Assembly (NCBI GenBank): GCA_039096225.1
Contig: JBBPEB010000007.1
Span: forward strand, 992,001 to 1,056,000
Direction of reading: 5' to 3'
Length of the DNA: 64,000 nucleotides
Source of the DNA: Blastocystis sp. Blastoise
Lineage: Eukaryota; Sar; Bigyra; Opalinata; Blastocystidae
Shown: positions 13,573 through 40,690 of the stretch, piece by piece
Numbering within the stretch: the stretch's first letter is position 1
Layout of the letters: each line of letters opens with the position of its first letter
Notes under the pieces: model-generated
Database searches by the model: none
Told to the model about the DNA's origin: nothing
What the model saw: only the letters and a program-made list of their open reading frames with translations
Translations under genes and position numbers: made by a program

Positions 13573-16500
13573 TTACTGTTGATCAACGACAATACTTAAT
13601 TTACCAATAGAATAACTATTATCGAAACGATCTGTAATTTCATTGGTCTTTCGAATATGTTGTGTGTGTTTTGTAGCAAATAATTTAACAGGAGGTAAGT
13701 TTAATATATATTCTGTTTGAGATAATAATTGAATATATACATAAGCATTAAGATTACGTTTTTGAAGATATTCACTTGTATATTTATCTTCTACATTAAT
13801 AACTTTCCCTGTAACTTCCATATTATTACTACTTATACTATAAGGAGTAATATTCTTATATAAACTCTTATTGGTTATATCATCATTTCGACAATTCTCA
13901 ACTAATGTCGATAAACGAGCAATATCTTTATCTGTCTTTTGCATAATCCAAGTATATAATTGTTTTTCATCATCTTCTCCATAAACACGAATCTTATAAA
14001 TATATATACATCCATCTTCTCTCTTTAAATACTTTCCTTTCACAGTATGATGATAAGAAAGAGTTAATCGTTCAATACACATATATTTTATAGTAAATAA
14101 TTGTATAGAAGGAAGTTCACTATAAGTAAGTAATTTATCACGGGGAATTGGATCATCTATATATATATATATATAACAAGGAAATAAAAAAAAATACATT
14201 TAATATAATTTTATAATATAATATAATATAAACAAAAAAATAACAAAAAACAAAAAACAAAAAACAAATATAAATCAATCAAAAAATAAATAAATATACC
14301 TATATCATAAAGTTCAGATAGATGTTCATTAATAAAAGGAGCCAATTCTTCTTTACTGCGAATAGGTATAGAAACAATAATATCACTAATAACCTTTGCA
14401 CAAGCTACAGTAGGACAAACTACATAGACATTTTCTTTGGATTTATTAATAATAATTTCATTATAGAATGTATCTACAGATATATTAAGATTAATAGGAA
14501 TACTCCAAATAACATCACCATTTAATTTTACATAATAAACATTCAAATCGGTTATAATTAAATAATTACAGAAATAATTACAATTTATATAACAAATAAA
14601 TTTATCTTTTTTCTTTTCTTGGAATATACCTCCTCGAATCATATCACTAAATATTAATTGACCAACACTACTAAAACTATCATATATTCTTAAAATATCA
14701 TCTTGATAAATAAAACGAGGAACACGTTCACGTTCTAAACTAATCTCTTCATTGGTTAAAGTCTTAACGGTATCCAATATATTTGTAGCTTCATCAGCTA
14801 AACCAGCTAATGGTTTTGCTACAAGTCCTACTACACCTGTACCAACACCTTTAAAGAATCCAAGAGCACCTTGTTCTTTAGCACCATGTACTGGATCTAA
14901 TACAAAACCAACAGCAGCTTCTTTCAATCCATAAACAAATCCTTTCTTACCTTCAGCTCTTCCTTCATTAAATTCTTTATCACCACTAATAGAAGCCATA
15001 AAATTACCTATAGTACCTGTCATCTTACTAGCACTATTAAATACACCATAAGTAGTAGAAGAAAGAAGTTTCTTTGTACCACGACCAACACCTTTAGCAA
15101 ATTCACCTGGTCCTTTAACTATACCTTGAGCAGGTTCATAGAAGAATGCTTTGACACCACTACCTACATTATCAATTAGACTAAATGGACTACCTATAAT
15201 ATCAACAGAAGCAACGATCTTATAAACATTACGCATTATTTGAGATATATAATGAGACATAATCTTAGCAATAAATTCATCTTGAGATTGTAAAATATCC
15301 GTGAAAAAGAGAGCATTCATAGAGATCTTAGCTTCATCTAGATTTCCAAGAGCAGTAGATACAGTATCGATAACAAGAGAAAGTGGTAAGAACATAGGAT
15401 CATTAGGAAGGAATGAAGAAGAAAGAGGATGAGAAGGATCCATTTTATTTGTAAGAACTAATTGTATAGGTTGTAATTCTAATGTTTCTATAAATATTTT
15501 ACTATCAGAAGCCATTTCATCAGGAAGAATAATTGGTCTAAAGAAATAAAAAATAATAATGATATGTATAATTTTAAATATTTATTGTAAAATAAAATTA
15601 GTTTAAAATGTATATATATATATATATTAAATAAGAATAATAAATATAATAATAAAGATATATATATATACCTAACAAATAGAGGATTTAATCCAATAAC
15701 TTCAGTTCCCTTCTTACGTTCAGTTTCATATAAAGTGGAAGGAATGCTACTTAATAAGGAGAGGAGAGATACTAATATATAACTATCACTATACACACGA
15801 ATCTCCTATATAGATAATTCAATAGTAATATATTAAGATATAATAATAATAATAATATACTAAGGTTATTTAAATATAGAATAAATAATATATATATATA
15901 TATATACTTGTAGAAGTAGAGAGAGATATTCTATATAAAGAACTGATGGATGTGAAGGCATAATAAGAGATAAAGAGAAGAAACTATTATCTGTATTATT
16001 AATAGAAGGAGAACCAACAAATACATTCTTATCTACAGTGAGTAATTGATTATCTATTTGGAATTTACCAAGCTATATAATGGTAAGTATTATAAGTATA
16101 ATAATAATAATAATAAACCATATAAATATAATAAACACATAAATATAATAAATAAAATAATAAATATAATATATACCTTCATTTCTACCGTTTGTGTTTT
16201 ATTAACAAGTGAATCATAAGTAATATCAAAGTTCTTACAACATATATAAAGTAATTCCTTAGGAGTACTATCAATAAGACTAATACCAAATCCTTCCATA
16301 CTAACAGTAACATTAATATTACATATATCTTTTTCACTAGGAGGAGCAACCCAGAAAGTATCTAAATTCAAATAAGTACCAAAACCAGAAATAGACTTCT
16401 TTATATTATAAACCATATCTTCTTTAATAATATCAATAGTAGTAGAATAAAAACATTTATTTAAGTCTTTTATATCTATATCTTGACCTTCAGGAGCTTC

Positions 16501-19500
16501 TGCTTTTGTTGTTTCTTTATATACACCCCATACTTGTATTTCACATTTATTCATATCTTGTGTCTTTCCCCACGGGAATGTGAACTGTTCACCAATATGC
16601 ATAGAAAATGTTGTTACTTCTATAAAATAGTAATTGTTTATATAGTAATAATTATATATTAAGATAAAATATAACGAAGAAAAGAAATAAAAATTAAAAA
16701 AAAATAATAAAAATAAATATAAAATAAGAATAAAAAAATAATAATAATAATAATATAAAAAAAAATAAAAATAAAAATAAGAATAAAAAAAAAATAATAA
16801 TAATAATAATATAAAAATAAAAATAAAAATAAACCCCTCTATATATATACTTTGAGAGACCTTCGCGAATTCAATAGAAATTGGTCTTTCTGAATAATTA
16901 TTAAAGTTATCTAATCCATCTTGATCGATTAATTTCATACCATTCACTCTTCTTAAATATAAACCAGGATGAATCTTATAATAATCAGCAGCACTACCAC
17001 CATAAACTTCTTTTACTTGTAATTTATCTCGTTCACCAACCATACATGTAAAACCTAAATCATCTTCTTCAAAATCAACTATAAATCCATTATTCTTTTC
17101 TTCCTTTTCTATTTCTCTACATACTTTAGAAGTTAAAGTACAATCACCAATAGTTGCAGTAATATAAAGAGAATCACAATCAGCAGGTATTTGGGGTAAT
17201 TGATTAATACTATTAATAATAATACTATATCCTTTATTCTTTTCTAATTCTTCAACAGCCTTTAAAGCTTTTACACTTGGATTAAAACTATTAAAAGCAG
17301 ATTTCGTTTGTCCACTCTTCTTCATAAGATCACGTGCAGTATCAATATCAACTTCAGGACTGTCTGCTATATAATCAAATGTATTCTTAGCAACATTCAA
17401 AACATCTTCTTTAGTACTATTACGATCTTCAATAGAATTAATTAAAGCATCAGTAATAGAAGGATATCGAATCTTAGCACGATTTGAATGATCAACATAT
17501 TTATTAATATATTGAGCTGTCTTATTTTCTTTATCTCCTTCTATAGAAGAAGCAGCTTCACTTGTATTCTTTATATAATTTTCTATTTCAGTATTCATAC
17601 ATACTATATATTCACCTACTTCTTGTACTATATCTTGATTGTCTACCATACGAACAGTCTCAGCAATAAGATTATTTGTACCTGTCATAAAATTAACATA
17701 TACATAACCACCAAATTTATAATCATTTTCGGGATCATAGCAAGGAACACGGAAACGATATAAAGTATTATCTTCTAAATCTTTTAAGTTAATTGTACCT
17801 ATGTAACCAGTATATGGACTTAAAACATCATAACGAACACATAAACGGAATTCTAATATATCAGGCTTTGATTTAGTTAAGAAGATTTCTTTATTATAAT
17901 AAGCTAAAATACCATTATAAGTATCAGTGGCTGCTTTCTTTTCATCTCCTTCCATTTCTACATAACTAGTTATAGAAGTCTTATTATTAATCTTTAAATC
18001 ACTTGCATATCTATATTTTATATATAAGTATTGTTTTCCTTCATGATTATCTTTTATTTCTTGTACTCGACGAGTTATATTAGCATATAATGTTTGAAGA
18101 TCTTTATAAGTCTGTACATATTTAGCTAAATATTCATTATAACTATTTAATATATATGACTTTATATATTCTTGATTCTTATTTTGTAAAGTAATATAAT
18201 CATCTTCAAAGATTAATAACTATAAAGTTATAGTATTATTAATAATAATAAACATAATAATAATATATATATATAACAAATATATAACAAATATATAGCA
18301 AATACAATAAATATAATAATAATAAAATCAAGTATATACCTTAGAAGCTTTATCAATATCCATATAAATATTAACTTTCTTATTCTTATATCTCTTTAAA
18401 GAAATAGTTTGTTTCGATATAATTTCTTCAATATTCATCTTCTTTACATATTTATATCGTTCTACACTTTCAGGATCACCAACTTTCTTCATATAAATAA
18501 ATATATAATTAGATCCTTGAGGATCCACTTTAATATATTTCGTAGAAGTAGCAGGAGAGAGACAAAGAGAAGTAGAAAGAGGAGCACCTTCTTGTTGTAT
18601 ATATATATTAAGATCTAATGTACTATTTGATATACAATAAGGAATCTCAGATAAGGACTATGAAAATGAAATTATAGTCATATATATTCATATATACATG
18701 AAAAATTAATATAATAAAATAAAATAATATAATATAATAAAATAATATAATATAAAATAATAAAATAATAAAATAATAAAATAATAAAATAATATAATAT
18801 AATAAAATAATAAAATAAATATTATATAAATATATATATATACAAGGGGTCTAAAAACAACACAGATATAGCCTAAGTTTTGTTTAATAATAACTTTAAA
18901 ACGTTTATCATTATAACGGCAATCTTCTTTTTCTTGATGTTTATCGATATTAATTTCTAATTCTCTATCTGTATTACTAACATCTATCTTCTTATCTAAT
19001 ACTATACAATATTCACCAATTGTATTTAAATCAATTTCACTACTATATACATAAGAATCGGTATTATCAGTAGAACTATCAATATTCATGCATAAATGAT
19101 TAGCATAAGCACAGGAAGGGGGATTATAAACAGAAATAGTATTACTCACTAAGGAGAATGCAGGTAAAGAAGGATGTTGACGAAGCTATATATAGAGGAT
19201 AAGATAGTATACAATAAGTTATTATATATAATAGAATAGATAATTATATATAATAGAATAGATAATTATATATAATAGAATAAAATATCTATATATATAT
19301 ATATATACAAGTATATTATATTTGGTTTCATTCTTGACTATATATTGATTTGTAATAGTAACAAGGAAGGAATAAATAAATTGATCAGGAGCACGTGCTA
19401 TAGATACATTATATATATATTGAGAACCATTCTCTCCTTCTACCTATATATAGAGTAATATATATAATAGAAAATATATATAGATTAATAATGTATATAT

Positions 19501-19572
19501 AGATATATATACTTTAACTTGATTATCTACACCAAGAGTATCAATTGAAAAAGCATCACTCATTTTACTATC

Positions 19573-19603
<31 letters not shown>

Positions 19604-19873
19604 TAATAAATAATATATAATTTATAAAATTATATATAATATATAATAATATAGAATGAATAATATATACCTCTCATATAAAGTTGTACTTTATTCTTCT
19701 TATTAGCAGGATCAATGAATCCAAATAATCGCGGGAATATATAGTTTTCATCTTTACAATTCATATACTTAGGTACATCTGGTATTTCGCTACTTGTAAA
19801 TATACGTGTTTCTGATTCAGGTAAGTGAACAGTTGTTTTATCCGAAGAATATATACTAAAAGATGATAATAAT

Positions 19874-19928
<55 letters not shown>

Positions 19929-22900
19929 TATATATATATATCAAATTGTAATAAAACTCAATAATTAATAGTAAAATAATAATAAACATAATAATAATAA
20001 ACATAATAATAATAATATATATACGAGAGAGGGTGTTCAGTTCTGTTAACGATAAGGAATTGAGGGTATATACTAATACAATAACAGCCGGTATCGTCCT
20101 TCTTAATATCATAAGATAAATATATAGTACCAGTAATCTCTGATGAATAAGAGAAACATTTCTTACTTACTTCCAGCTATATAGATAGATGTAATGTATT
20201 AATAAATGAATATATATAATATATATTATATAGAATAATATAGAATAATATAGAATAATATAGAATAATATAGAATAATATAGAATAATATAGAATAATA
20301 TAGAATAATATATACAGGAATATAAGCTAATGTATCTTTTTCTCCATATATAGTAATAAATATTTTCTTTTCAAATATATCAACACTATTAACATATTGT
20401 TCTGCACCCATTTCAATTGTATTTGTTGTCTTATTCACATCTATATATATATATATTTTAATAATAAATAATAATTATATATATAATAACTATATATATA
20501 TATATACATTTTTCTTCCATTTCCTTATATTCATAGATGCTATAGTTAATAGGAACAGGACAACAATTACTTATCTTCATAATATCACTGAAAACGCACG
20601 TGTATAGAGTTAATGACGACTTCTCCGTCACTACTTCTGAAGTAGTAACTTCTGACTATATATATACATAATGAGAAATAAGAATTCTATAATAATATAT
20701 ATATAATATATAATATATATATATACGAAAATATAATAAGGTTTATTGATATCATAAAGATTGAAACATCTATTGATATTATTATTATATATATTACAAA
20801 GTAATATATCTCTTCTTTCCTTACTATTCTCATGCTGCATAACTTCAAGACTACCTATATATATATATAATAAATATAAACATAATAAATATAAATAAAT
20901 ATAAATATAAAAAAAAAAAAAATAAATATAATAAACATAAAATAAATATAATAAACATATCATAAATATAATAAACATAAAATAAATATAAACATATCAT
21001 AAATATAAATATAATAATAACACAATATGTATATACCATTTTCAATATAAGTGACAGGAATAAAACATGATTCATCTCGTTTTATAATACATAATTCTTG
21101 TTTACATGTATCAATATTACGTTTATCTTCAATTAAATTCAAATATAGAGGATCTTTGCATTTATTATGAATACATAAATTACTCTCTATCTTTACGATT
21201 TTTTGTCCATTTTTAGAGTCTACGTGAGTAATAATATTTCCCACTACTTGAGCATTCTTATATAGGGTAGTACATTGTTGAACTTCTATATCTACATTAA
21301 TATAGATTTCATCAAAATCACCTATTTTCACACTAATAATACGATTATTTACATATTTATCTTCCATATTATAAGCACGTAAAGGAAGAGAAGGATGAGC
21401 AGGTAAAATAGTAGTAACAGTTTCTCCTTCTTCAACTAATGTATACCCAGGTTTTAATAAATAAGGGACTTTTGTAGAAGTACCATCCGTATTATTATTA
21501 CTATTAGCATCTTTAGGTGTATTTACAGTAGGTAAAGAAACAGCAAAACTAACATGACGACCTTCTTTTTTAACCGCGGGAGTATTTGTATTAGTAGTAG
21601 TAGTAGTAGTAGTAGTAGTAGCATTATTATTATCAGTATTATTACTAATATTATTAGTATCAGAGAGAGTAGAAATTTGTGATTTCTTCATATATAACGG
21701 TTTATGAGCATGAATCTGTCGATCTAACGTATCAAATGCAATCATCCAATCTTCACGTGACTCAAGATCTCGTGCACGTGCAACTAACTTTGTGTTTTGT
21801 ACTTGTATAACGAATGTATTAGGCATACATTTATTAGGAGGAGGAAGGAGATTGACTTGATCTGAAAGTATCTGAATATCTTGAGTATAAGGAGATGGAT
21901 TCATATCATCACAAGAAACAGGATTTGTAGGTATATAAGAATATAAACGGAAATAAGGAGAATCCTTATAAAGTTCTATATAACAAGGATGAAACTTCTG
22001 ATCTATAGACTATATATATAATAAGATAGAATACTATAATAAACAAATATATATATATATAAACATAAATAAATTAAAAAAAATACTTTAATATCAAAGC
22101 AATCAATAATTCCCGTGAATATCGGTTGTTCATACATAGTTGATTTATAGATAAAATCTTCTTTTTCTTTTATATATTGATATATATTACCGTCTTGTAC
22201 TACTTTATATTGTAAAGGTAATCCATAGTTATTATATATAGAGATATAATATCCTTTCATTTGACTATTACTGCGTGTTGATTTATCTTCTAAACTCTGA
22301 GATAATAAGAGTAATTGAGTTAAGAAAGCAATAGAGATATTAATATTCATAATAACATCACTATGAATGGCTATAGTAGTATAAGAAAGAGAAGAAGGAG
22401 ATAAAGAGGAAGAACTATCACGAATCTTAGCTAAACGTTGTTTCTATATGGAAATATACGTTTATATTTTAAATATATAATTATTTTGTATTTATTATAT
22501 ATATAAAATAATGAATTAAGATAAAATATCAATTATATAATTGTAATAGTAAATATTACAAAAGATATAATATAATCATATAACAATATATATATTAATA
22601 ATAGAACAATAATAATAGTATAGAATAATAAAATCTATATAATAATAACATCTATATACAATAATATGTTTAGGTAATTGTGTATAGCTAATAAACATAT
22701 GCCAAGGTTCAAAGAGAGGTTCCCATTCACACAATGTCTTATTATAATATTCTGCATAAATAGCAACAACCATATTAATATAAGTATCTTCAGGAGACAT
22801 ACGAACTGTTAATTCTATATCTGTTAAATCAAATTCTATTACAGGAAGAGATAAATCATTAGCATCATTAACTACAGTAAACTTTACATTATGAATATCT

Positions 22901-24158
22901 ACATTAAAATTAATTGTAGTTGTAGAAATAGTTTCTATATCATTTTGAGCTTCAGTTACTTTCTCTTCAATATCATCTAAATCTTTCAAATCTTTGATTT
23001 TCTTATCAATTTTCTTTACAGGAGTTGCATCTTCTTTTGAAGGGAATAATGTATTTAAGAAAGACATAAATAAATTCATATCTAAAATACCAAATCTTAA
23101 ATACACAATATTACTCATTTTATAATTACCCTTAATAGAAGCAAAATGATCATTCAATTCAACATCAATATACATATCAAAGGGTTGAATACTATCATAT
23201 ACAGTAGGAGGAGGAATAATAAGTGTGTCATTTGTACGGCAACCACGAATATTCTTAACAGCAAGATCTACAAGACAATCATCATTAGGGAATAAATGTA
23301 CTTTTAATGAAGTATCTAAAGTAAATAAATAAACAGAAGCATCAGCAATATGTGGATCCTCAACAATATATATAGATGGCTTTTCAACAAAGAAACTGAA
23401 ATATACATCCATATTCATAGCTATACAGATATAATCAATAAGTTATATTATAAATATATTATAAATATATATAATATATATATATATATTATATATATAT
23501 TATATATATGTTATATGTTATATATATATATATATTTATATACAAGTAGGTTTTTTAGGTCCTTCAAGAGCTTCTTTCTTTTTAGTTTCTTCTTCTTTTT
23601 TCTTTGTTTCTTCTTCTTCCTTCTTTTTCTCTTCTTCTGTTTTTTCAGGTCCTGCTAAAGCTCTAGTTTTCCAATCTAATAAGTCCCAAATTAAAGTTGT
23701 AGGTAATATTCTCATACTACCCATTCTTAAGGATATATGCATATACATAACATCATCATGTTTATTCTTAGAAGTAACATAATTAGGACATATTACATTA
23801 TAATCAGATACTTTTCGATTCTTCATTTCCATTAATAATGTCATACAAGGACGATTCAAATCTCCGAATTTCATTGGCTTCTTATAACTTGGAAGAACTT
23901 GATTGGTTTGACGACTATCTGCTATTTCTATATATGATAAAGTTAAACCAATATCACGTTTCTCTGAATCTTGATGGAAATGAACATTCATCTCACCAAT
24001 ATCTAATATACTTAAGGAATCCTATATATTATTTATATTATTATTTATATTATTTGTATTCGTAGTAATATATATCATAATAATAATTAACTTATTTATA
24101 TATATATCTAATTTATAAATAAATGTAAAAAAAATAGTTAATATTTAAAAAATCAAAG

Positions 24159-24192
<34 letters not shown>

Positions 24193-27100
24193 TTGATGCT
24201 TTCCCATCTGTTCATATATTTCAATTCCTTTCATATGTTCATCATAGCCTCCATAATTATTGGATAGTTCTATACATATACCATCTAAACAGAAATCTAA
24301 ATTAATAATAGAAGCTACACCTGGAGCAGTTGGTGTTTCTTCCTCTTCATCTTCATCATCATCTTCATCATCATCTTCATCATCATTAGATTCAACATTT
24401 GTTCCATTCTTCTTTTTATTCTTATTCTTATCTTTATTACTCTCTTCTTCTTCTTCTTCTTCTTTTTCTTCTTCATCTCCTTCTATTACAACATCTAAAT
24501 TATCATCAACAATTTTACTAATACCACGACTAGCTCTTAAAGCAATTTCATTATCTAATACTATAGGACTAGTATTCATAAAATCATCATTTACCTCTTC
24601 TATAGATAATTCTTCTTCTTTTTCTCCCATATTTTCGCTTAATATAGCTAAAATCATCTGAACTTGTTTTTCACTAACAGCAAAAGCAATCTTAGTAATC
24701 TTTATAGCTACATCACATTGTATATCAACACGAACAACTAAAAGCATCTCTACACCACCCATAAGAGCTTGATAAATATAATCATATTCAGGAGAAGATT
24801 TAGGAGTTAAACGATCATCTGTATCTTTTAATCCTTTTGGAACAGCAAGAGCAGATACTAATTTCATACCTTGGAAATGAATAGATATTGTATTTAAAGG
24901 TATTAAATGATCTTTAACAATACGAGCAATATTAGTAGTACGAGGAGTAATAGCAGAAGTAATTGGATCTATATAAGTAGTATCTTCTTCTATCCATTCA
25001 TTATCACTATCAATAGCATCTTCAAATTCATCATCACTCTCAAATGAATCTACAGTCTCTTTAGTATTGGAATTCATAGTAGTAGCATTAGGATCAATAT
25101 AAGTAGAAGGAAGAGGAGGAGGCATATTATTAATAGCAATTGTACCCATTTCAAATCGTAATAATTCTTGACTATTTGAATTACGAGGAATAACAATCAT
25201 AACATTATTAAATAATATATCAATTAAAGGTATAGGTACACCTCCATTTGTCATTTCATCTTTTGAAGAAGTACTTTCATCAGGTAATATAGGGACAGTA
25301 AATCCATTACTATCAACATAAGTAGAAGGTTTGGGCTCTTCTTTAATAGGTTTTTCTTTCTTATTCATTTTCTTAGATTTCTTATTCTTCTTATTTGTAC
25401 TACTATTATCTTCTTCATCTTCATCTTCTTCATTAATTGCTTCTAAATTATTCATATTTGCTATTTGTACACCTTGAATAGAATTCATAGTAGAAGTAAC
25501 AGCAGGAACAGTAGGAGCAGGAGAAGACATAAGAGCAAGAGCATCTGCTAAAATACCTTCAGAATAATAAGCTAATAATTGATTGATATATATATATCTA
25601 AATGTTATTTCAGGAGATTCCATTAATACTTTAGCAGATATATCATATCCTATAGAATAGTCATTCATATATAAAAAAGATATAATAAAGAAATTAATAT
25701 TATTTTAATATAGTAAAAAGAAAATGTTGATTTGTTTGAATGTTAAAAATAATAATAAATAATAATATATAATAATATATAATAATATATAATAATATAT
25801 AATAATAAATAATAATATATAATAATATATAATAATATATAATAATAAATAATAATAAATAATAATATATAATAATATATAATAATAAATAATAATAATA
25901 AATAATAAATAATAAATAATAAATAATAATATATATACCAGGATATTGTGGATATTTCTTAGAATTATACATAATAACATCAAAAGTAAAGAAATCATTA
26001 TTCTTTTCATCTTTAATAACTCGAATAATATAAGGATAAAGACCTTGAGAAGGTGATTTATCTTGAATAGTAATATCACCCAATCCTCCCTTAACACACA
26101 TAGTGCCTGCAGACATATTAAACATTAAATTGAATTTATCCATAGATATTAATAATAATGGACTTGTTGTCTCCTAAAAATATAGTGTAATTAATATATA
26201 AACATATATATATTATTAGTAGATATATTCATTATTATGATGATTATATTTATTGATATATATAATAGTGATAAAAAAATATTTAATATATCCATAAATA
26301 AAAAAAATTAATATATATATACAGTATTAAGAACAAGATTGATTCTCCCAAGTTCAACATAAGCAAATATAGTCTTACGATTCCAATCCCCAAAGAATTC
26401 AGGTTCTTCTTTTGGTTTTTCATCTTTAGGTTTATTATAAGCTTCTTTAGCTTTAGCTATAAGTGAGTCTCTAGTCTTTTTAACATATCCTGATGCAGCA
26501 GAAGTAAGAGAAGAGATAGAAGAACGAGAAGCAGAAGAAGCAATTGATTCTTTATCACCTAAATCTTCATTCTTAAAGAAGAAGGAAAGAAGAGAATATA
26601 TAGTTGATGGATTCACAAATACTATATATATATAATAAAATTTAAAAAAAAGAAGAAGAAACAAAAGAAAAATGAATTAATAAATCAATATATATAATAA
26701 TAATAATAATAAATATAATAAAAATTATAATAAATATAAATATAAATAATATAATAATAATAATCAAAAAAAAAAAATAATAAATATATAATATATTAAA
26801 AAAACATATATATATATTTAAATAAAAAAATAGAATAAAGAACATACTACTCATAGCTCCAAATTTCACTTTTACGACCATATCCCCTTCAACATCATTA
26901 TATATAGGAGATAATTCTTGTACCATATATACATCTATAGTAACCATTTTATTCTCTGTAGTTTCCTTTAAATCACGAGTAGCAACTTCACAATGTTCAT
27001 CTATATCTTCAGATATATACATATATTGTTTCTTTCCATTATGAATTAATGTTTCACGATGACCATCATGTATATATATAGTATCTAAAGTCATTTTCAC

Positions 27101-27757
27101 AGTCATATCATAAGTACGTTGTTGTAAAGATACATATAAATTATTCATACCAAAACTAATTATTTCTACATATTTATCTTCTTGTTTATTATTACTAAAT
27201 AAGAATAAATTAGTAATTGCTTTATCTCTTTCATCTAAAGTACAAGAAAAACCATCTATAATAACTTCTACTTCCATTGATATATATTCTTGAAGAAGTA
27301 ATAAATCTTCTTTATTAATATTTCTATATTGTTTCTTTTGTTTTAATTTTTCTTGTTCTAAAGCTTTTTCTTTCTTCTTCTTCTCTTCATCTGTATCTCC
27401 CATATAACTATTATATGCCATCTTAGCTAAAGCTCCTGTATATCCTTCTTCTTCTTCTTCTTCTCCTTCTTTCTTCTCCTTCTCTACAGGCTCAGGATTT
27501 GCTTCATCAATATTCTCAATATCAATATCATTAGGAGCAGTATTCATTGAAGCTAAGAATAATTCTGACCAATCTAAAATATTCTTATATTTATATGTAT
27601 TTATATGTAGATTCACAACATCCATATGTAATTGTACCTATAGAATAATAAATTATTATTTAAAAGATATTTATAAATAAATGATATTCATTGTCTTTGA
27701 AATAACAATAAAGAATAATTTATAAAATAGAATAATCAATAATAATAATAATAATAA

Positions 27758-27795
<38 letters not shown>

Positions 27796-30700
27796 CTATA
27801 TACCTTCATAGCAGCAACAGCACATTGATTAGGAGCGATATTTTGTTGAAATAAAATATCAATATTAAAAGGATATATAAGTGTATATTTATCTTTTGAT
27901 TTACTTTCAGCAGCTGCATGGAAATGAGATAACTTCTTATATATATCAACTTCTATACCTTGAACACGAATTGTATAATTATCATAGATCTTTTCCACGG
28001 GAATTACCTTTGAAGTATCTCGTTGAATAGGCTTACATCCAACGGTAATATCCCCTAATTTAGCAATTATACCTATATATATATATATTGTTAGTTATTA
28101 TTAGGATATATAAAGTGTATAATTATTTAAGATATATATAATATAAAGAGAATATATAGAATAAATATATACCTCTGGCTTGTCTATGAGAAAGAGTACA
28201 ATTTTCAGGAACAATAATATTCATAGACCCAATAGTAATATCAATATCCATAGATGTATGATTCATAGCTTGCTTTATGGACTATAATATATATAGACAT
28301 AAGATATAGAATAATAATAGAATAAAAAAGAATAATAAATATTATAAATATTATAATAAATAGAATAATAAATAGAATAATAAATAGAATAATAATAAAA
28401 AATATAATAAAAAATAGAAACCTAAATATAATAATTATAATATTAATAATAATAATATGTATAATAACTATATATATACATATCCAGTAGTAGCTCCTTT
28501 AAGAGACGCAACCATACTCATTGCAGAATCTTCATAACCATATAAATTGACTTGAACTTCTTCTTCTTGAGGTATAGAGAAAAATCCACCTATATATATA
28601 TATATTCATAAAAAACGTTAAAAAACATTAAAAAAATATTAAATATATATATCATAACAAGTTGAATAATTCTAAAAAATAATAATAAATAAAAATAGAA
28701 TAAAATAAATGTATACCAACAGCCATAAGCCAAGGCATATTAGCGACAAAATATAAGGGTAATGTATTTAATTTGACTTTCAAGTCACTAGTTCCATCTA
28801 CAGCCGGCATTTCAACATGTATTTGTAAGAAAGGAACACGATCTTTAGTTAATATACTCTTATCAATAAAAACATCATAATGATTCACAATAATTTCATC
28901 ACTACCTTCTTCATCTTTCTCATCTTCTTCTGTTTCTAAAGTTAATTCAGGTTCTTCTTTATCAGCTATTTCATTTAACTTATACATATTTTCAGTATAT
29001 AATATATTCTTCCAACGTGTACCATCTGTACAAGTATCTTTTATATACATATCTTCTAAAGCTATGTCGACATTCATACCTGATAAAGTCTGAACAAATT
29101 TAAGACCGAAATTCTCAATATTTACACTGAAAAACACTTTTTCAGGAATATTGATTCCATTTGAATTTGTTTTTTCTTTTTCTTTCATACTTACAGTTAA
29201 TCCTTCCATCTTTATAATAACTAACATTTGAATATCTCCAGGACGACCGCCTTCCCACGGGGATGTGTCATCTTTTGTAATATCCATTTCTTTATAGAGT
29301 TCCATTTGTTTTTCATCATTCCATTCAAAAGATTCAGCAGTTTTATTATTATTATCACCAGTAGTAGTAGTAGTAGTAGTAGTAGAACCCCAACTAAACC
29401 AACTAGAAGAAGTTTTCTTTACAGCATCTTGTTGTTTTTTCTCTTCTACTTCTTTCTCTGCTATTTTACGGAATAATAATATATTTTCAAATAATACGTC
29501 ATCTTCTATTTGTTGCATACGTTTCATACCTTCTTTATCTTTCTTTAATGATTTATAACCAGGGTATTCCTTAAAACGTTTATATAATTCAATATATTCT
29601 GTTCGGACTTTCTTAAATTCTAAATATTCATTCCATCCACTTTGTTTATGTTTATTCTTATTATCGAAATTAACACTGTTATATACATATTGCCAATAAC
29701 CTTTAGGGTACATATATTAAGGTATATAATTGTTTTATAGAAAAAAAAAGTTATTAAATAGTATTAATATATATTTAGGCTAATAGAATAAGAAATTGTA
29801 TAATAAAATATTGAATGTAAATAAAAAACAAGAAATAATTTAATAATAAGTAAAAAATAAACATAATACTACAAAGTATAATAATAAGGATATATTTGAT
29901 TTGACATTTCCTTCAGGTTTAAATCGTTTATATTTTGCCTTAAGACTTTGCATCGAGAGAGCACTTGTAAAGCTAAGTATATCACGATATTGATTCTTTT
30001 CAATACATAATCCATATTTAGACATATTCATTGTAACTTTCATAACAGGAGAAGGAGTATTAATAATATCCCAAGCCTTATGATAATATTCTATTAATAC
30101 ATTTCTATATTGACCATTAATATCACGAGGATAATATTCAACAAATGTATCTAAATATAATTGTAATTCTTCATCTTCACTTCTACCTCGTATTCCATCT
30201 TCTTTTATATACATAAATACTTTCTTTGCATGTTTTGATAAATAATGTTCTTTATTCATCTCCATCTCTTCTAAAGCTTTATTTGTAGCTATATCAGAAT
30301 TAGGTTTACGGACTTCAAAACCACGGTTATCCATCAAGAAATTCATTCCTAAGACAACAGGAGTTAATATATATTCCTGTGGAACTAAAGAACGTTCAAA
30401 AGGAGTTAAATCTTCAAGAGTTCGTTCTTTAGTTTCATTAGAAGAGAATGTCGAAGTAATAGCTTCAGGAAGGAGATCCGGAACAGTATTCTTCCAAAGA
30501 TCAAACGGGATCTTCATATTATTACAGAAATCTTTACTATCTGAAGGCATAGATTGAGTAATATCACTATCCCAATAAAGAGCAAATCCATTAATACTTA
30601 TATGTTTACGAATAACTCCAGGAGTAGGAGTATCTTGACTACCTGCATTTGTAGGACGACCCTTATTATCTACTGTTAATACATGTAATTCATTTAAAAG

Positions 30701-31728
30701 AATACCCATACCAAATGGATGATTCTTATTAGAACTATATATATATATTTTGTTTGTTTGAATATTTATAGTGAATTATAGAAATTTTTTTTTGAATATA
30801 TATTATATAGTTATATTTTATATAGTTATATTTTATATAGTTATATTTTATATAGTTATATTTTATATAGTTATATATTATATAGTTATATATTATATAG
30901 TTATATATTATATAGTTATATATTATATAGTTATATATTATATAGTTATATATTATATAGTTATATTTTTGATAGCACAAATAAATAAAAATATAAACAA
31001 AAATATAAATAAAGCAAAAATTTAAAAAAAAAAATAAAAATATATCTACCTTGAGTCTTCTAGACGAATATGTACACGAGAAACTTTTAGTTGGAAATTA
31101 TCAATAATTTTCGCAATTAGACGTCCTATCATTGAATTATCGGATTTCTCATTAAGAGCAGCATCTCGACGTTTAGAACTGTCATTTATAGACTATATAA
31201 ATCATAGAATAATGAATCAACTCTAATTTGTCAATCCAATAGAATTATAAACATATAGAATTCGAAGAAAAAAAATTAAAAATTAGAGTATACCTGTATC
31301 TGTTTACGTTTTGAAGCTAATTCAGATGCTTCTTCAGCTTCAGGATCAAATTTAACTTCAGATTTAGGACAAGCTAAAGCGTAAACATCACTAACTTCGA
31401 CAATTGTTGGCTTACTTCCTAAACTAGTCCATGGAACCTAAACAAAGTGTAAATTATAGCAAGACATATATGCTCTTTATACCTTAAGAACAAGACTTCC
31501 CAGAAATCCAGCCTTGATCTCAACAGGTAAATTCAATGCGGATAAAGCACTTCCTTTTATTTTCTATATATAGAATCATACTTATTTAGTTGATTTGTAT
31601 ATATATACTAAGTCATGAAGTTGAATATCTCCACCTAAGAGTCCTAATTTCAAATCTTTTGCTTCAACATTCTCAATATAGTCGCCCAGAAATCGACTAA
31701 GAAGAGAACTTACAATTTCCTCAAACAT
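13573..31728 (-). CDS. VPS13: VPS13-family bridge-like lipid transfer protein, about 4,560 aa, 32 exons
   Basis: VPS13 proteins move bulk lipid between organelles at contact sites. Exons, first to last: 31609-31728, 31483-31563, 31294-31437, 31050-31192, 29894-30734, 28717-29707, 28480-28589, 28173-28281, 27804-28072, 26848-27637, 26323-26621, 25939-26173, 24193-25649, 23544-24021, 22660-23420, 22087-22443, 21037-22009, 20727-20854, 20508-20655, 20316-20440, 20025-20176, 19671-19855, 19513-19571, 19309-19443, 18844-19185, 18340-18657, 16851-18219, 16177-16619, 15908-16072, 15672-15805, 14300-15537, 13573-14156. They sum to 13,683 nt, divisible by three with no internal stop. The N-terminus is classic chorein (SSLLSRFLGDYIENVEAKDL, then LPVEIKAGFLGSLVLKVPWTS). 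A PH-like domain lies near residues 2398-2500, SHR-BD-like strands follow, a PDZ-like domain near 3626-3700, and the VPS13 C-terminal region (GSPFSLIDNVGSGVKAFFYE, GVGTGVVGLVAKPLAGLADE) near 3960-4230, then a final PH-like end. Exons 10-14 carry acidic, Lys/Glu-rich linkers. Confidence 0.93.
19868..19930. repeat. (AAT)n microsatellite in VPS13 intron
   Basis: About 18 AAT trinucleotides lie in the intron between VPS13 exons at 20025-20176 and 19671-19855. They are in the polypyrimidine-side of the intron on the coding (minus) strand, where they read as ATT. Confidence 0.85.
20226..20312. repeat. 10-bp minisatellite in VPS13 intron
   Basis: About eight copies of tagaataata lie in the intron just 3' (minus strand) of the VPS13 exon at 20316-20440. 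Confidence 0.85.
25740..25935. repeat. 10-bp AT minisatellite in VPS13 intron
   Basis: The intron 25650-25938 is almost completely made of alternating aataataaat and aataatatat units. Confidence 0.85.
29708..29893 (-). other. U12-type AT-AC intron in VPS13
   Basis: On the minus strand the intron begins ATATCCTTATT, a match to the U12 donor ATATCCTT, and ends TATGTAC. TACCTTAAT, close to the U12 branch consensus TTCCTTRAY, lies about 10 bases before the end. Removing it joins ...EGNVKSN to PKGYWQYVYNSV in phase 0, as VPS13 homologues read. No GT-AG alternative keeps the frame nearby. Confidence 0.8.
30795..30970. repeat. 15-bp minisatellite in VPS13 intron
   Basis: About eleven copies of tatagttatatttta or its variant with tatta fill the intron between VPS13 exons 4 and 5 (30735-31049). 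Confidence 0.9.
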
Positions 31729-34129: not shown

Positions 34130-36466
34130 TTGAGTATGCTATTTATATAGTTTTATCATTTATATATATATATACTATATTTCACTTCTCTATTGATATT
34201 CATTAATAAATATATATATATATATATTTTATATTACTCTTTGTTATTCAATTTCTATTGTTATCACAAGGATTCTTTTATATTTATAATAATTCTCTTT
34301 TGATGATTCATTATTCTATCTTCATTATTATCTCCTAAACTATTTCGTTGCGATTTCATTTTCAATTCTTTTTTTCCTTTCTTCCTGTATATTTTATTTT
34401 CATTTTTTCTTTACTTTTCTCGTAATATACTATTTCTTATACATCATTATCATTTGGTGTTTTCTGCTTTAGACTATATTTATTAATTTCTACAATATTT
34501 TATTTATGAATTTCAATATTTTATTTATTAATTTCTTCAATTACTCTATTCATAATAAGTGTAACAATATAATTATAAATTTTATAATAATATCTACTCT
34601 TTATTATATAACTTTGTAAATATATCATATTTAATATCAATGTAAATATATATATGATTGCTTATCATGTTTTTGTATTCATTATTAATATCATGATGTT
34701 TTTTTTTGTTGTGGATGAAAAGTCAAGACAGTATTCTTGTTTTCATATCACACGTTTTTTATTTTTTTTTCTAATTTCATGTTTCTTTCTTCATTTTTTA
34801 AAATACTGTTTCATTTCTTTATTGTTTTTCAATTTAGAGATTATATATATATATATAACAATTTTTATGTTGATTATGTTTTTCTAATATTAATCATTCT
34901 TTTTGTATTCTTTTGTTTTGTTTTTCACATTCTATATTCATGATATGTTCATGATATGTTCTTTATACATAATATTTGTATCACTTTGTTCAAGCTACTT
35001 TTTATTTCTTTATTTTCCCACTTATGAACAAAAATTATCATAAGATAACTTAGCACAATGATTCTTTATTCATAAAACCCTTAAAATATGAAAAATACAA
35101 TCAATTTACTATAATGAGCATATTATTATCATCGACTTAATATCTGTGTTGTCACTATCTTCATCTTTATTACATATAACATATAAGGATTATCATTATA
35201 TACAATTTAATATAAATAATCAGTAATAATTCCATAAATAACACTATGGACATTTTGTGTTTTTTTGACCCTATTTCCCGTAAGAGAAACAACAAAATGA
35301 CTGGGATTTTTTAATCAAAAATACGTTGGCCTAAACTCGAGAAAAGAGTGTCCGCCAACTTGTCAAGTTTCTCTCTTTTTGACGAGAAAAACTTAAAAAT
35401 AACTCTACAAAATATATTGTTTATTTATATAATCATAGACATTCTAAATATTGACTATTTTACAGTGTTTTATGATTTAAAATGACTGTTTAAAACCAAA
35501 AAGACTTTAATTTTTTCTCTGAAGTCTATAATTCAGGAATGGATTACATGAGTGACAAATTTTTTAAAGTTGTGTGTTCTCTGAGTGATGTATTATCATT
35601 TCAATCATTCTCGTCAAGTCCTTTTACAATAAAAACCATTATACAGCCTAAACCAAAACACACCTAAAAATTTCTTCTTTTTTATTTCCCAAGGAAAAAA
35701 CAATAAAATGACTTGACTTTTTTATTCATCATTTTTTAGCCTAAAGACGACAACATTTCTTTCAGCCAACTACCCTAGAAAGTCAAAACAATTAAAAATT
35801 CAAAAAAGAAAAGTAAAACGGAAGCTCTTGTTTTTGTTTATTGATTATCGTCATTAAACCTGTTTTTAAAAATATGACTTTAGAATATCATTCAGGACTT
35901 GATTTATAGTTCAGGGTATCGTTTTAAGGTTTAAAATAGCTTTTTTGAGAGAATTCATAATTATGTCCTAAACCAAGAGGAGTTGTGTGTTTTTATCATC
36001 TCTGTTGTTAGATATGTGTATACACAACATACTCAGCTTCACATAATTGTTTTTCTTGCTAGTCAAGATTTTTCACTCATTTTTAAATATTTGATTTTTA
36101 GTCTCAAAAGTGGTATAGAGTCTCTATACATGCCTGTAAGAATCGTTTTTAATACTAAAAAGTCAAAAATATTAAAGAAAAGTGACAGTGAAAAAAGGAG
36201 GGAAAAAATACTTTTTTTGAGTTTCTTGATATTCCCGCAAAAATGATTTTTCTTTTAAGACCTGAATACACCCATACGCTATTGAGCCTATTAACTTAGA
36301 AAATATTTTCATTTGTTACTTATTTTCTTTATTTTTATTTTATTTTTATTAGCTGTTATTTTAAAAAATAGAAGTTGATTTTAACTTCAGATTATTCTCT
36401 TGTATGTATATTACTATTTTTTATTCTTTATCAATATTAACATTCTCCCATTCTCTAGCATGTATA
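34130..36466. other. Intergenic, AT-rich, with a diverged duplication
   Basis: The first kilobase is T-rich with no gene. A diverged pair of sequences begins at about 35268 and 35682 (atttcccgtaagagaaacaa against atttcccaaggaaaaaacaa), each followed by aaaatgact, a T-run and a nearby ggcctaaa or agcctaaa. Short frames here have no family features. Confidence 0.5.
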
Positions 36467-36825
36467 GGTTCCTGCTCGTCCATGGTTATAAGAGTCCTCT
36501 TCAGTCCATGTCAACAACGTCTATGATGTCAAACTACTTTCAAAGTATATATGTATTTATTTATTTTTATAATTATCTCTAATTTTTTTCTTTGTTATAT
36601 TTTTAAGTATTATATAATAGAGTACTTATCGTATATTCATTCTATCTATTATTAGCTTTCTTTTTGTTTTTTCTTAAATTAGAATCTAATTATTTTATTA
36701 TTTATTTTCATTATTTTTATATTTTTATTTATTATTATTTATTTATTTAGGTTGTTTTCTACTGTTTCTGTTGGTTATCTTTCCCTATGACTCAACATCA
36801 CCAAATTTATTTTTTTCTATTAGGT
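36467..36825 (+). other. Two exon-like segments at the edge of the pyrimidine tract
   Basis: Segments 36467-36545 and 36752-36824 are each preceded by an AG acceptor and followed by GTATATAT or GTATGT, the donor form used by genes here. They are more GC-rich than their surroundings. Joined in one phase they stay open (ending SCFLLFLLVIFPYDSTSPN) but no family is visible, and the surrounding frame is unclear. Could be remnants of a gene or a spliced non-coding transcript. Confidence 0.25.
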
Positions 36826-38875
36826 ATGTTTATTTATTTATTTATTTATTTATTTATTATCTAGTTCTTCTTTATTTCTTCTTCTTACACAAAATGATTC
36901 CTTCTTCTCTCTTCTTCATTTTCTTCCTTCTACACTTTTATCTCCTTATTTCTTCATCTTCTTTCTTTATTACTTCTTCCTATGCCTTGTCTCCAGCCTA
37001 TATCCTTGTCTCTCCCTTTGATTCATTATCTTCCTCAGATCTTCATTTTTCTTTTATTTTTTCTTCTATCTAAATTCCTTTATTTTTCTTTTTTTTAATT
37101 ATACCTCTCTCTTATCTTCGCTTCCCTTTTATATCACTCTTTCATTACTCTTTCTTAATCACTATTCTATTTACATTGTATTTCGTTATGTCTTTTTCTT
37201 TTATCCTGTTATCCTCTTCTCCTTATTCTATACTTCTTTTTCCTCGACATGTATTAGTGTATACCCTCCTTTTCTTCCTCTTCCTCTTCTTCTTCTTCTT
37301 CTTCTCCATATAATTCTTTGCTTTTTTCAGATCTTCATCTTCTTATTTATATTTATATCACTATTTATTATATATATAGTTCTCTTCTATTATTTGCCTT
37401 CCTCCTCTTCCTTCTTTCTATTCTTCTCATACTTCTTCTCTCCTCCTTCTGATTCCCTTTTTTTTACTGCCCTATTTTCCTTCTTTATCTTCCTTCTCTC
37501 CTCTTTCTGTATAATTCTATCTCAATCTTCCTTCTCTCCCTCTCTATTCTCGTATCCATCTTTATCCTTATTCTTTTTCCATTTATTTCTCTCTGTCCCT
37601 GTCTATTTTATCTTATATGTCTCTTTCTACCTTCTTGTTTCCTTTTATATTTCCTTCTATGTCTCCTTTTCCACTTTATATCTACTTTTTTTTCTCTCTC
37701 TCCTTCTCTCTATTATTATATATTCTTATGTTCTAGTTATCTATTTTCTATTTTTATTTCTATCCTTTCATTCTCTATATTGTTATATCTACTTCTATTT
37801 TGTCTCTTTTCTTCTATCTTAATCTTCTATTTAATCCTTTTATTTCTTTCTATATATCTATATCTTCTTGTCTCTAACTTCTTTCTTAATCTCTTTTATA
37901 TCCTTCTATTTCTCCTTCTATCTCTCCTTCTTTCTCCTTTTCTATTTTCTTCTAACCATCTTTTTTTCCTATTTTTCTCTTTCTATCCCTATTATCTCAT
38001 TCTCTATCTTCTTCTATATTCTTCTTCTTTCATCTTCTCTCCTTCTTCCTTCATCTTTCAATTTCCTTCTCTATCTTCCTTTTATCTCAGCTACTCCTTC
38101 TGTCTCAATCTTCAGTCTTTCCTTTTCTTTCTCTTTCAACATCATTCTATCTCTCTGTATTCCTATATTTCTCTTCATATTTCTCTATCCTTATCTATCT
38201 CATTCTACCTCATTTATGTGTCTCAATCTCATTCTCTATTTCCTTCTATTTTCTCTTATCTACTTATATCTTCGTATATTTCCTTATATCTACGTATATC
38301 TACTTCTCTATCTTATTATATCTCCTTCTAACTTAATTTACTTCCTCTTCTTCTTTTTCTCCTTCTATCTCCTCTTCTATCTCCTCTTTATTCTCCATCA
38401 TCTTCTATCTACTTCTCTATTTCCATCTACATCCTTCCATCTTACTACATCTCAATCCGTTTTCTCTCCTTCTATATCCTTTTATATCCTTTTATCTCTC
38501 TTTCTCTCTTATCCTATTTATTTTTCTTATTTCTATCCATTTCTATCTACTTTATCTTCTCTATCTCATTCTATTGTATCTATATCATTCTCTTATCTTT
38601 CTATCTCCTTCTATTTTTAATCTTTTCTATCTACTTCTCCTTCTCTATTTCCTTCTATTCACTTCTATATACATCTCATTCTTCAAATCATTCTATATTC
38701 TTCCCTTCTTCCTTTTAACTCTTGCTATTTGTTTTTATTTTAATCTACTTCTCTCTTCCCTCAATCGACTTTTATCTACTTCTCCTTCTCTGTTTGATTC
38801 TATCTCCTCTCTATCCATATTTTCCTTTTTATTAATATTTATCTCCTTCTCTATATCTTTCGGTATTCTTCTATC

Positions 38876-38876
<1 letters not shown>

Positions 38877-38948
<72 letters not shown>

Positions 38949-38965
38949 ATATCTATCTATTTATT
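38877..38965 (+). repeat. (CTAT)n microsatellite
   Basis: About 18 near-perfect CTAT tetranucleotides lie within the pyrimidine-rich tract, followed by a degraded TTTATTTAT end. A shorter array is at about 39607-39634. Confidence 0.95.
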
Positions 38966-39887
38966 TATCTCAATCCCCTCTCCCCTTCTATATATTTTAT
39001 TACCTTCTATGTCTCTACCCTATTTCCCGTTTTCTTTCTGTCTCTTTCTTCTCTCATATACTATTGTTCTATCTTTTCTTTTTTTATTCTTCTTTTTTTC
39101 TTCTTTGTTTTTTCTATTATACTTCTTTATCTTGCTTTGTCTCTCCTTCTCTCTATGTCATTCAAATTATAATTCTCTCTATCATTCCCTATCGTTTTCT
39201 TTGTATGTATTTTTCTTTCTAATTTTTTTCTATATAAATTTATCTTTCTTGATATTCACTTCCTGCTCCTTTTTTCTCCCTTCTTCGTCTCATCTTCTTT
39301 TCTTCGTCTTCCAATTCTATCTGTTTTCCTCCTCCTTCTCTATCCTTCTCAATTCCTCTCTACCTATCTTTATATTCTTTCTTTTTTATACACCTTCCCT
39401 ACTCCTCTATTTCTCTTTTTATCTTTATTCTTGTATCTATTTTTATCTTATTCTCTATTTCATTTGATTTCTTTTGTATATCTCTCATTCTATATAGAAT
39501 TCTATCTCTTTCTATCTAATTTCTTCTTTATGTCTCTCTTTTCTTCTTTCTTTCTATTCATCTATTAGTGTATCTATCTATTTATATCTTTGTATTTTTT
39601 TTCTCTCTATCTATCTATCTATCTATCTATCTCTTTTATTTCTTTATATCTTTCTGTTTCTCTATATATGTTTCTTGTTTATTCTTCTTTTCTTTTCTTT
39701 CTCTTCTTCTTCATTTTCTTGTATATCTTCTTCCTATTCTTTATCTTACTTTTCTTTCTTTTTTTCACCTCCTTCCTTGTCTCTTCTTCACATTCATCCT
39801 CTTGTTCTCTTATTAATCTATTTATTCTTTCTTATCATTATTCTATTTATTCTTCATCTTCTTGTTGTCATTATTCATTTCCTTCTT

Positions 39888-40400
39888 CTTATTCTTCCTT
39901 ATCTTCCTTATCTTCTTATTCTTCTTCCTATTCTTCTTCTTCTTCCTTATCTTCTTCCTATTCTTCTTTTCTTCTTCTTCCTTATCTTCTTCTTATTCTT
40001 CCTTATCTTCCTTATCTTCTTATTCTTCTTCCTATTCTTCTTCTTCTTCCTTATCTTCTTCCTATTCTTCTTTTCTTTTTCTTCTTCCTATTCTTCTTTT
40101 CTTCTTCTTCCTTATCTTCTTCTTCTTCTTCCTTATCTTCCTTATCTTCTTATTCTTCTTATTCTTCCTTATCTTCTTATTCTTCTTCCTATTCTTCTTC
40201 TTCTTCCTTATCTTCTTCCTATTCTTCTTTTCTTCTTCTTCCTTATCTTCCTTATCTTCTTCCTATTCTTCTTTTCTTCTTCTTATTCTTCCTTATCTTC
40301 TTCTTATTCTTCCTTATCTTCCTTATCTTCTTCCTTATCTTCTTCTTATTCTTCCTTATCTTCCTTATCTTCTTCCTTATCTTCCTTATCTTCTTCTTAT
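39888..40400 (+). repeat. TTCTTATTCTTCC-type minisatellite
   Basis: About 500 bases of higher-order repeats alternate ttcttattcttcc, ttatcttcc and ttcttcctattc. Units duplicate in blocks of about 150 bases, for example 39946-40040 and 40186-40270. Confidence 0.85.
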
Positions 40401-40690
40401 TCTTTATCCTCTAATCCTCTTCTCTTCTGCATTCCTTATTATTATAGATCTCTATATATCTATCTTTGTCATTTATTATAAATTATTTTTCATTTTTTTT
40501 ATTAATCTCAATAATTAAAGACCCTATCTCATTTACTTTATATTTCTTTCTCTTTTATTCTTTTTTACTTCTTTTCCCTTCTTCTAGCATCCTTTTTCAC
40601 TTATACATATATAAATATATCCTTACACATCATACTGACTCATTATTCCTACTATTTTACTTTCATTTATGTATTTTTATTCTATATTAT

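Follow-up and report, generated by a model that had tools for sequence, protein, structure and literature searches.

A probable U12-type AT-AC intron in a VPS13 gene of Blastocystis sp. Blastoise and candidate components of its minor spliceosome

The VPS13 gene of Blastocystis sp. Blastoise is interrupted by an intron with AT and AC ends that we take, with a probability of about 95% and judging from sequence, to belong genuinely to the AT-AC subtype of U12-type introns and to be excised by the minor spliceosome. It spans 186 bases of the minus strand, at 29893..29708 of the window, i.e., of the whole 64,000-nucleotide stretch that was analysed (contig JBBPEB010000007.1, positions 992,001 to 1,056,000). 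Its removal would begin with the pairing of AUAAAGGGC, at the 5' end of U11, with AUAUCCUU, and with that of the U12 stretch GAGUAAGGAA with UACCUUAAU, from which the branch A would be bulged out. The U4atac/U6atac.U5 tri-snRNP would then join and U6atac would take the place of U11 at the 5' splice site; this exchange is the least secure step of the scheme because the stretch of U6atac expected to pair there is altered in this genome.

Signals of the VPS13 intron

Read across both junctions on the minus strand, the sequence runs ..CCT GAA GGA AAT GTC AAA TCA AAT / ATATCCTTATTATTATAC ... TATACCTTAATATATGTAC / CCT AAA GGT TAT TGG CAA, the slashes marking the ends of an intron that lies in phase 0. 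The U11 candidate has a 5' end complementary to the 5' splice site, ATATCCTTA (29885..29893), which fits RTATCCTTT, the U12-type consensus given in an excerpt of PMC2846911, at eight of nine bases. The branch-site motif, TACCTTAAT (29716..29724), departs from TTCCTTRAY by one mismatch; its presumed branch A (29717) lies nine bases short of the final intron base, and the 3' splice site AC occupies 29708..29709. The second base of the branch motif differs from that of TTCCTTAAT, and the calculated pairing with U12 falls accordingly from -7.4 to -4.9 kcal/mol. Alone, TACCTTAAT is found at 397 places of the genome against 939 for a reversed control; as it is not rare by itself in a genome so rich in AT, it is the combination of signals that carries the evidence. 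A preliminary description of this DNA had named this 5' splice site, a branch motif about ten bases from the end and a terminal AC, all of which are borne out by the minus-strand reading, and its statement that the frame of VPS13 is restored in phase 0 holds as well, the join passing straight through the homology to VPS13. The AT-AC termini and the in-frame join rest on sequence reading, gene model and homology.

The gene model and other readings of the locus

The VPS13 gene model (13573..31728, minus strand) comprises 34 exons encoding 4530 amino acids, with the Pfam domain VPS13_N at the N-terminus. It was obtained as a single gene when our own exon-chaining script was permitted a U12 class, and contains 32 GT-AG introns, whose details are approximate, and the AT-AC intron, fifth of the 33. 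The exon on its 5' side (29894..30734) has the 3' end ..KRFKPEGNVKSN, its last bases being ..YKRFKPEGNVKSN, and that on its 3' side (28717..29707) begins with PKGYWQYVYNSV. No other U12-type intron appears among the 95 introns listed for both strands of the window, a list drawn from models with at least 150 coding bases and probably including some spurious members. The script is home-made, gives the U12 class hand-set bonuses and limits intron length; a first GT-AG-only run gave 28 introns, of which 23 went into its splice-site matrices and five with poor 5' sites were excluded. With GT-AG introns only, VPS13 was split in two exactly at the AT-AC intron when splice sites were not scored, and was kept whole through an intron at 29862..29701 when they were.

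The latter intron (GTTTATTT..CCCTAAAG) is one of several GT-AG alternatives. The preliminary description had stated that no GT-AG choice works, which is overstated and strictly wrong, since 17 GT-AG pairs near the site are in frame and free of stops. The real intron could then be of the major class, the U12-like signals being coincidental in AT-rich sequence. Indeed, 29862..29701 is the best of these pairs and the one picked by the scored model when the U12 class is disallowed, and its splice-site score of 4.7 is close to the 10th percentile of the GT-AG introns modelled on the minus strand (n = 50; median 12.6, 10th percentile 4.6). However, it would add the 11 residues ISLLLYFVVLC to VPS13 and remove PKG at a conserved place, and its 5' splice site reads GTTTAT, whereas the major-class 5' splice sites modelled in the window are mostly GTATAT, a uniformity that is partly built in because the matrix comes from introns hand-picked for good 5' sites and favours GTATAT. 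Homology, which is the independent test, goes the same way, in a comparison that took in only this best-scoring pair out of the 17: the match to VPS13_N drops by 19 bits, from 353.3 to 334.1, when the GT-AG join replaces that of the U12 intron, and the U12 join scores higher against each of the five VPS13-like relatives compared, of seven found (e.g., 253 against 242 bits, and 72.0 against 59.3 bits). In the script, hand-set bonuses included, the U12 choice gains 7.7 score units over the GT-AG pair. Sequence spanning the U12 join was also aligned by phmmer to the solved VPS13 chains 9yrm and 9yg4 (four chains matched), the alignment of 6cbc stopping just short of the join, and the paralogue WA158_001181 carries NPKLWWKFVYNSL where the VPS13 join has NPKGYWQYVYNSV. 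We therefore regard a GT-AG intron at this place as very unlikely.

It has also to be considered that the AT-AC intron is real and spliced by the major spliceosome, for which genes of U1, U2, U4, U5 and U6 snRNAs were all found in the genome; according to an excerpt of PMC3584512, AT-AC termini occur outside U12-type introns too. On the other side stand the hallmarks of the U12 type, namely ATATCCTT and, nine bases from the end, the branch motif CCTTAAT, as well as the minor snRNA genes and the other introns of like build in the genome, which together leave removal by the major spliceosome only a slender chance. That VPS13 is broken at the site, by pseudogene formation or an assembly error, with the intron arising as an artefact of the join, might seem to be favoured by a protein search limited to similar lengths, which returned nothing from the VPS13 gene at 13573-31728; the coding sequence is nevertheless open over the 4530 residues of the model, and 16 other introns of like build were called elsewhere in the genome, so that a broken gene is barely credible. 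The annotation of this gene may be missing or split. The second VPS13 of the genome, WA158_001181, is 33% identical to it over the compared stretch.

Minor spliceosome components

The preliminary description proposed that a minor spliceosome has been retained and that the genome be searched for U11, U12, U4atac and U6atac and for the U11/U12-specific proteins 65K, 35K and 48K. A genome-wide search with Rfam models recovered genes for all four snRNAs, and a 65K homologue is present, which supports such a retention. The U11 candidate (62.9 bits, cut-off 39) and U6atac (63.8 bits, cut-off 33) score above their Rfam cut-offs, and the calculated duplex of U11 with AUAUCCUUU is -4.4 kcal/mol here and -4.5 kcal/mol for the consensus. 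The U12 candidate retains AUGAGUAAGGAAA and reaches 46.8 bits (E 6.1e-7), under its cut-off of 53, but is backed by the upstream element described below. Similarly, the U4atac candidate remains under the cut-off of 53 with 29.7 bits (E 0.045) and was accepted despite this score on account of the same element and of its pairing with U6atac; cofolding of the two predicts 13 continuous pairs at the 5' end of U4atac and the stem AUGCUGAC/GUUAGCAU.

Among the proteins, the 65K homologue (RNPC3, RBM40) has RNA-binding protein 40 as its best solved relative (E 9.7e-13); its gene is present in two near-identical copies, on contigs C31 and C14. The candidate for U11-48K contains two CHHC fingers and scores 40.3 bits against a cut-off of 21.1, its best solved relative being GTSF1. 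The top single CHHC finger of the genome (40.5 bits) sits in another protein model, which we take to be TRM13-like. The candidate for U11-59K (PDCD7) scores 25.3 bits in the genome search and 20.1 bits in an hmmscan of the model, both under the cut-off of 27.

A shared upstream element of small RNA genes

Three of the four minor snRNA genes are preceded by AACTTCTAATCA, and U11 has the variant TACTTCTAATCA, which starts 61 bases upstream. The element occurs at 25 places in the genome, against six for the reversed pattern, and Rfam matches identify a neighbouring gene for an snRNA, U3 or SRP RNA at 15 of these: U1, U2, U3 and U5 (two of each, one U3 being reached from both sides), U4, U6, SRP RNA, U6atac, U12 and U4atac. 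The Rfam match begins 59-62 bases after the element does for U1, U2, U3, U4, U5, U11, U12 and U4atac, and 65-66 bases after it for U6, U6atac and SRP RNA; in our reading, the two spacings would fit a division between Pol II and Pol III genes. A further five places gave no convincing match to an RNA family in Rfam. The element should be useful for locating more snRNA genes.

The other five places are near-identical transposon-like copies whose open frame spans as many as 426 amino acids and in which the element stands 95 bases before the ATG. The frame presumably encodes a transposase of the Tc1/mariner type, and to us the copies look like a transposon that carries a promoter element of snRNA type.

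A divergent U6atac

The only U6atac gene found in the genome (contig C21, 544821-544937, minus strand; Rfam match, covered by two of the loci analysed) shares GAGAGAAGGUUAGCA, the U run and the greater part of the 3' stem with the family RF00619, but reads AGCCGAGAGA in place of the AAAGGAGAGA of the Rfam consensus. In its wider context the consensus is UGAAAGGAGAGAAGG and the gene UGAGCCGAGAGAAGG, so that the RNA would be expected to contain GAGCCGAGAGAAGG; the element AAAGGA that pairs with the 5' splice site is absent and AGCCGA stands in its place. This substitution weakens the expected pairing: the 5' end of the consensus U6atac pairs with AUAUCCUUU at -5.7 kcal/mol, a value reached by 35% of its shuffles, and this U6atac at -1.3 kcal/mol, with 97.5% of its shuffles pairing as well or better. 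Despite the change, the 5' splice sites and U11 keep their canonical forms. The gene looks otherwise functional from its shared upstream element, U run and predicted pairing with U4atac.

A second, canonical U6atac was not found in a genome-wide search for AAAGGAGAGAAGGTTAGCA with up to three mismatches, which gave three places, as did the reversed control; one of them is the known U6atac gene, and we read the other two as chance. A new helix between U12 and U6atac that would replace the lost pairing was considered and rejected: its best energy of -10.1 kcal/mol is reached in 45% of trials with a shuffled U6atac segment and in 58% of those with double shuffling, and when the search is confined to both 5' ends, 10% of shuffles reach the best duplex. 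A register of U6atac shifted further downstream gives -4.1 kcal/mol and explains nothing special, since its bases are also in the consensus U6atac. Exact-pattern scans for other U6atac in viral and prokaryotic contigs yielded 19 and 117 stretches, about chance by a rough estimate, and were left unused.

We offer as a tentative and somewhat doubtful possibility that the minor spliceosome of this organism works with a U6atac that has abandoned its canonical base-pairing to the 5' splice site. Selection of that site would then rest on U11, which still matches introns that keep ATATCCTT, and the hand-over to U6atac would rest on proteins, on the GAGAGA box or on a shifted register. By the title of their 1998 paper, Incorvaia and Padgett are said to have found base-pairing between U6atac and the 5' splice site to be required in vivo, and the change seen here, if real, would call a step so described into question. 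Among the matches listed from the open-licence literature on U6atac with Blastocystis or Physarum, no treatment of such a change was recognised.

Further AT-AC introns in the genome

Other introns of this type were sought with the pattern TATCCTT followed 61-121 bases on by TNCCTTRAY, and 30 matching loci were analysed. Neither this pattern (63 places genome-wide, 66 for its reversed form) nor TTCCTTAAT..AC (257 against 437) is commoner than its reversed control, and a genome-wide count of U12-type introns from patterns therefore fails. Within 14 of the 30 loci, the script called 16 more AT-AC introns of the U12 type, a rough count given that the caller is our own, with hand-set bonuses and a limit on intron length. 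Ten of the 16 are in phase 0, and the branch A lies 7-12 bases from the end in the 15 that could be measured. Three are in loci where permitting the U12 class gains less than 4 score units. On the side of the proteins, joins fall within the matched Pfam domains HECT, copine, NAGLU (three joins) and COPB2-like (COPA/B second propeller). The NAGLU gene, for alpha-N-acetylglucosaminidase, thus has three called AT-AC introns, one of which begins with ATATCCATT.

An A precedes TATCCTT in 27 of the 30 loci, or in 23 of 26 once four judged to be copies of one coding repeat are excluded; the binomial probability of the latter, 1.1e-7, assumes 37.5% A and is rough because ATAT runs are common in the genome. 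When 20 arbitrary places with TTCCTTAAT..AC were modelled under a looser rule for the 5' site, only two came out as introns, one weakly, so that the majority of these words do not mark introns. The 55 other loci analysed, some of them overlapping, gave no AT-AC intron of the U12 type.

Minor splicing in Blastocystis and its relatives

U12-type introns and a minor spliceosome are already known in Blastocystis, having been published for subtype ST1, and the VPS13 intron is thus ordinary for its lineage. Excerpts of Gentekaki et al. (2017; PMC5608401) report 346 U12-type introns in 319 genes of ST1, together with four minor snRNAs and seven U11/U12 proteins, and also mention U12-type introns and components in ST7. 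As excerpted, Larue and Roy (2023; PMC10639083) counted 253 minor introns in ST1, 77% of them AT-AC and 49% in phase 0. The present genome shares with ST1 the genus, the AT-AC ends and the minor snRNAs. By contrast, the median length of minor introns in ST1 is 39 bases (same excerpt of PMC10639083), as compared with 186 bases for that of VPS13 and 68-149 bases for the 16 others, sizes that the search pattern itself favoured. The genome is also larger (33.3 Mb against 16.5 Mb in ST1) and poorer in GC (22-31% in the window against 54.6%), and GT-AG introns are modelled at 33-417 bases in the window, where the script permitted 25-420, against a mode of 30 bases in ST1. Blastocystis belongs to the Blastocystidae, within the Opalinata. 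Among its stramenopile relatives, oomycetes of the genus Phytophthora likewise have U12-type introns and minor snRNAs, but very few such introns are reported in the excerpt of PMC2846911, which gives three predicted for Phytophthora sojae, one of them GT-AG.

These data indicate that U12-type splicing extends to a large, AT-rich Blastocystis genome, where restricting gene models to GT-AG introns breaks up or distorts genes, VPS13 among them. VPS13 was not mentioned in the literature matches listed, and a search of the open-licence literature found no publication naming the strain Blastoise. What could be new is the change in U6atac and the uniform promoter element of the snRNA genes.

Elsewhere in the window, a long pyrimidine-rich stretch at 36690-40518 is asymmetric between the strands and open in several frames, and is not gene-like; the GC skew is -0.69 and the AT skew -0.505 at 36001-40000.
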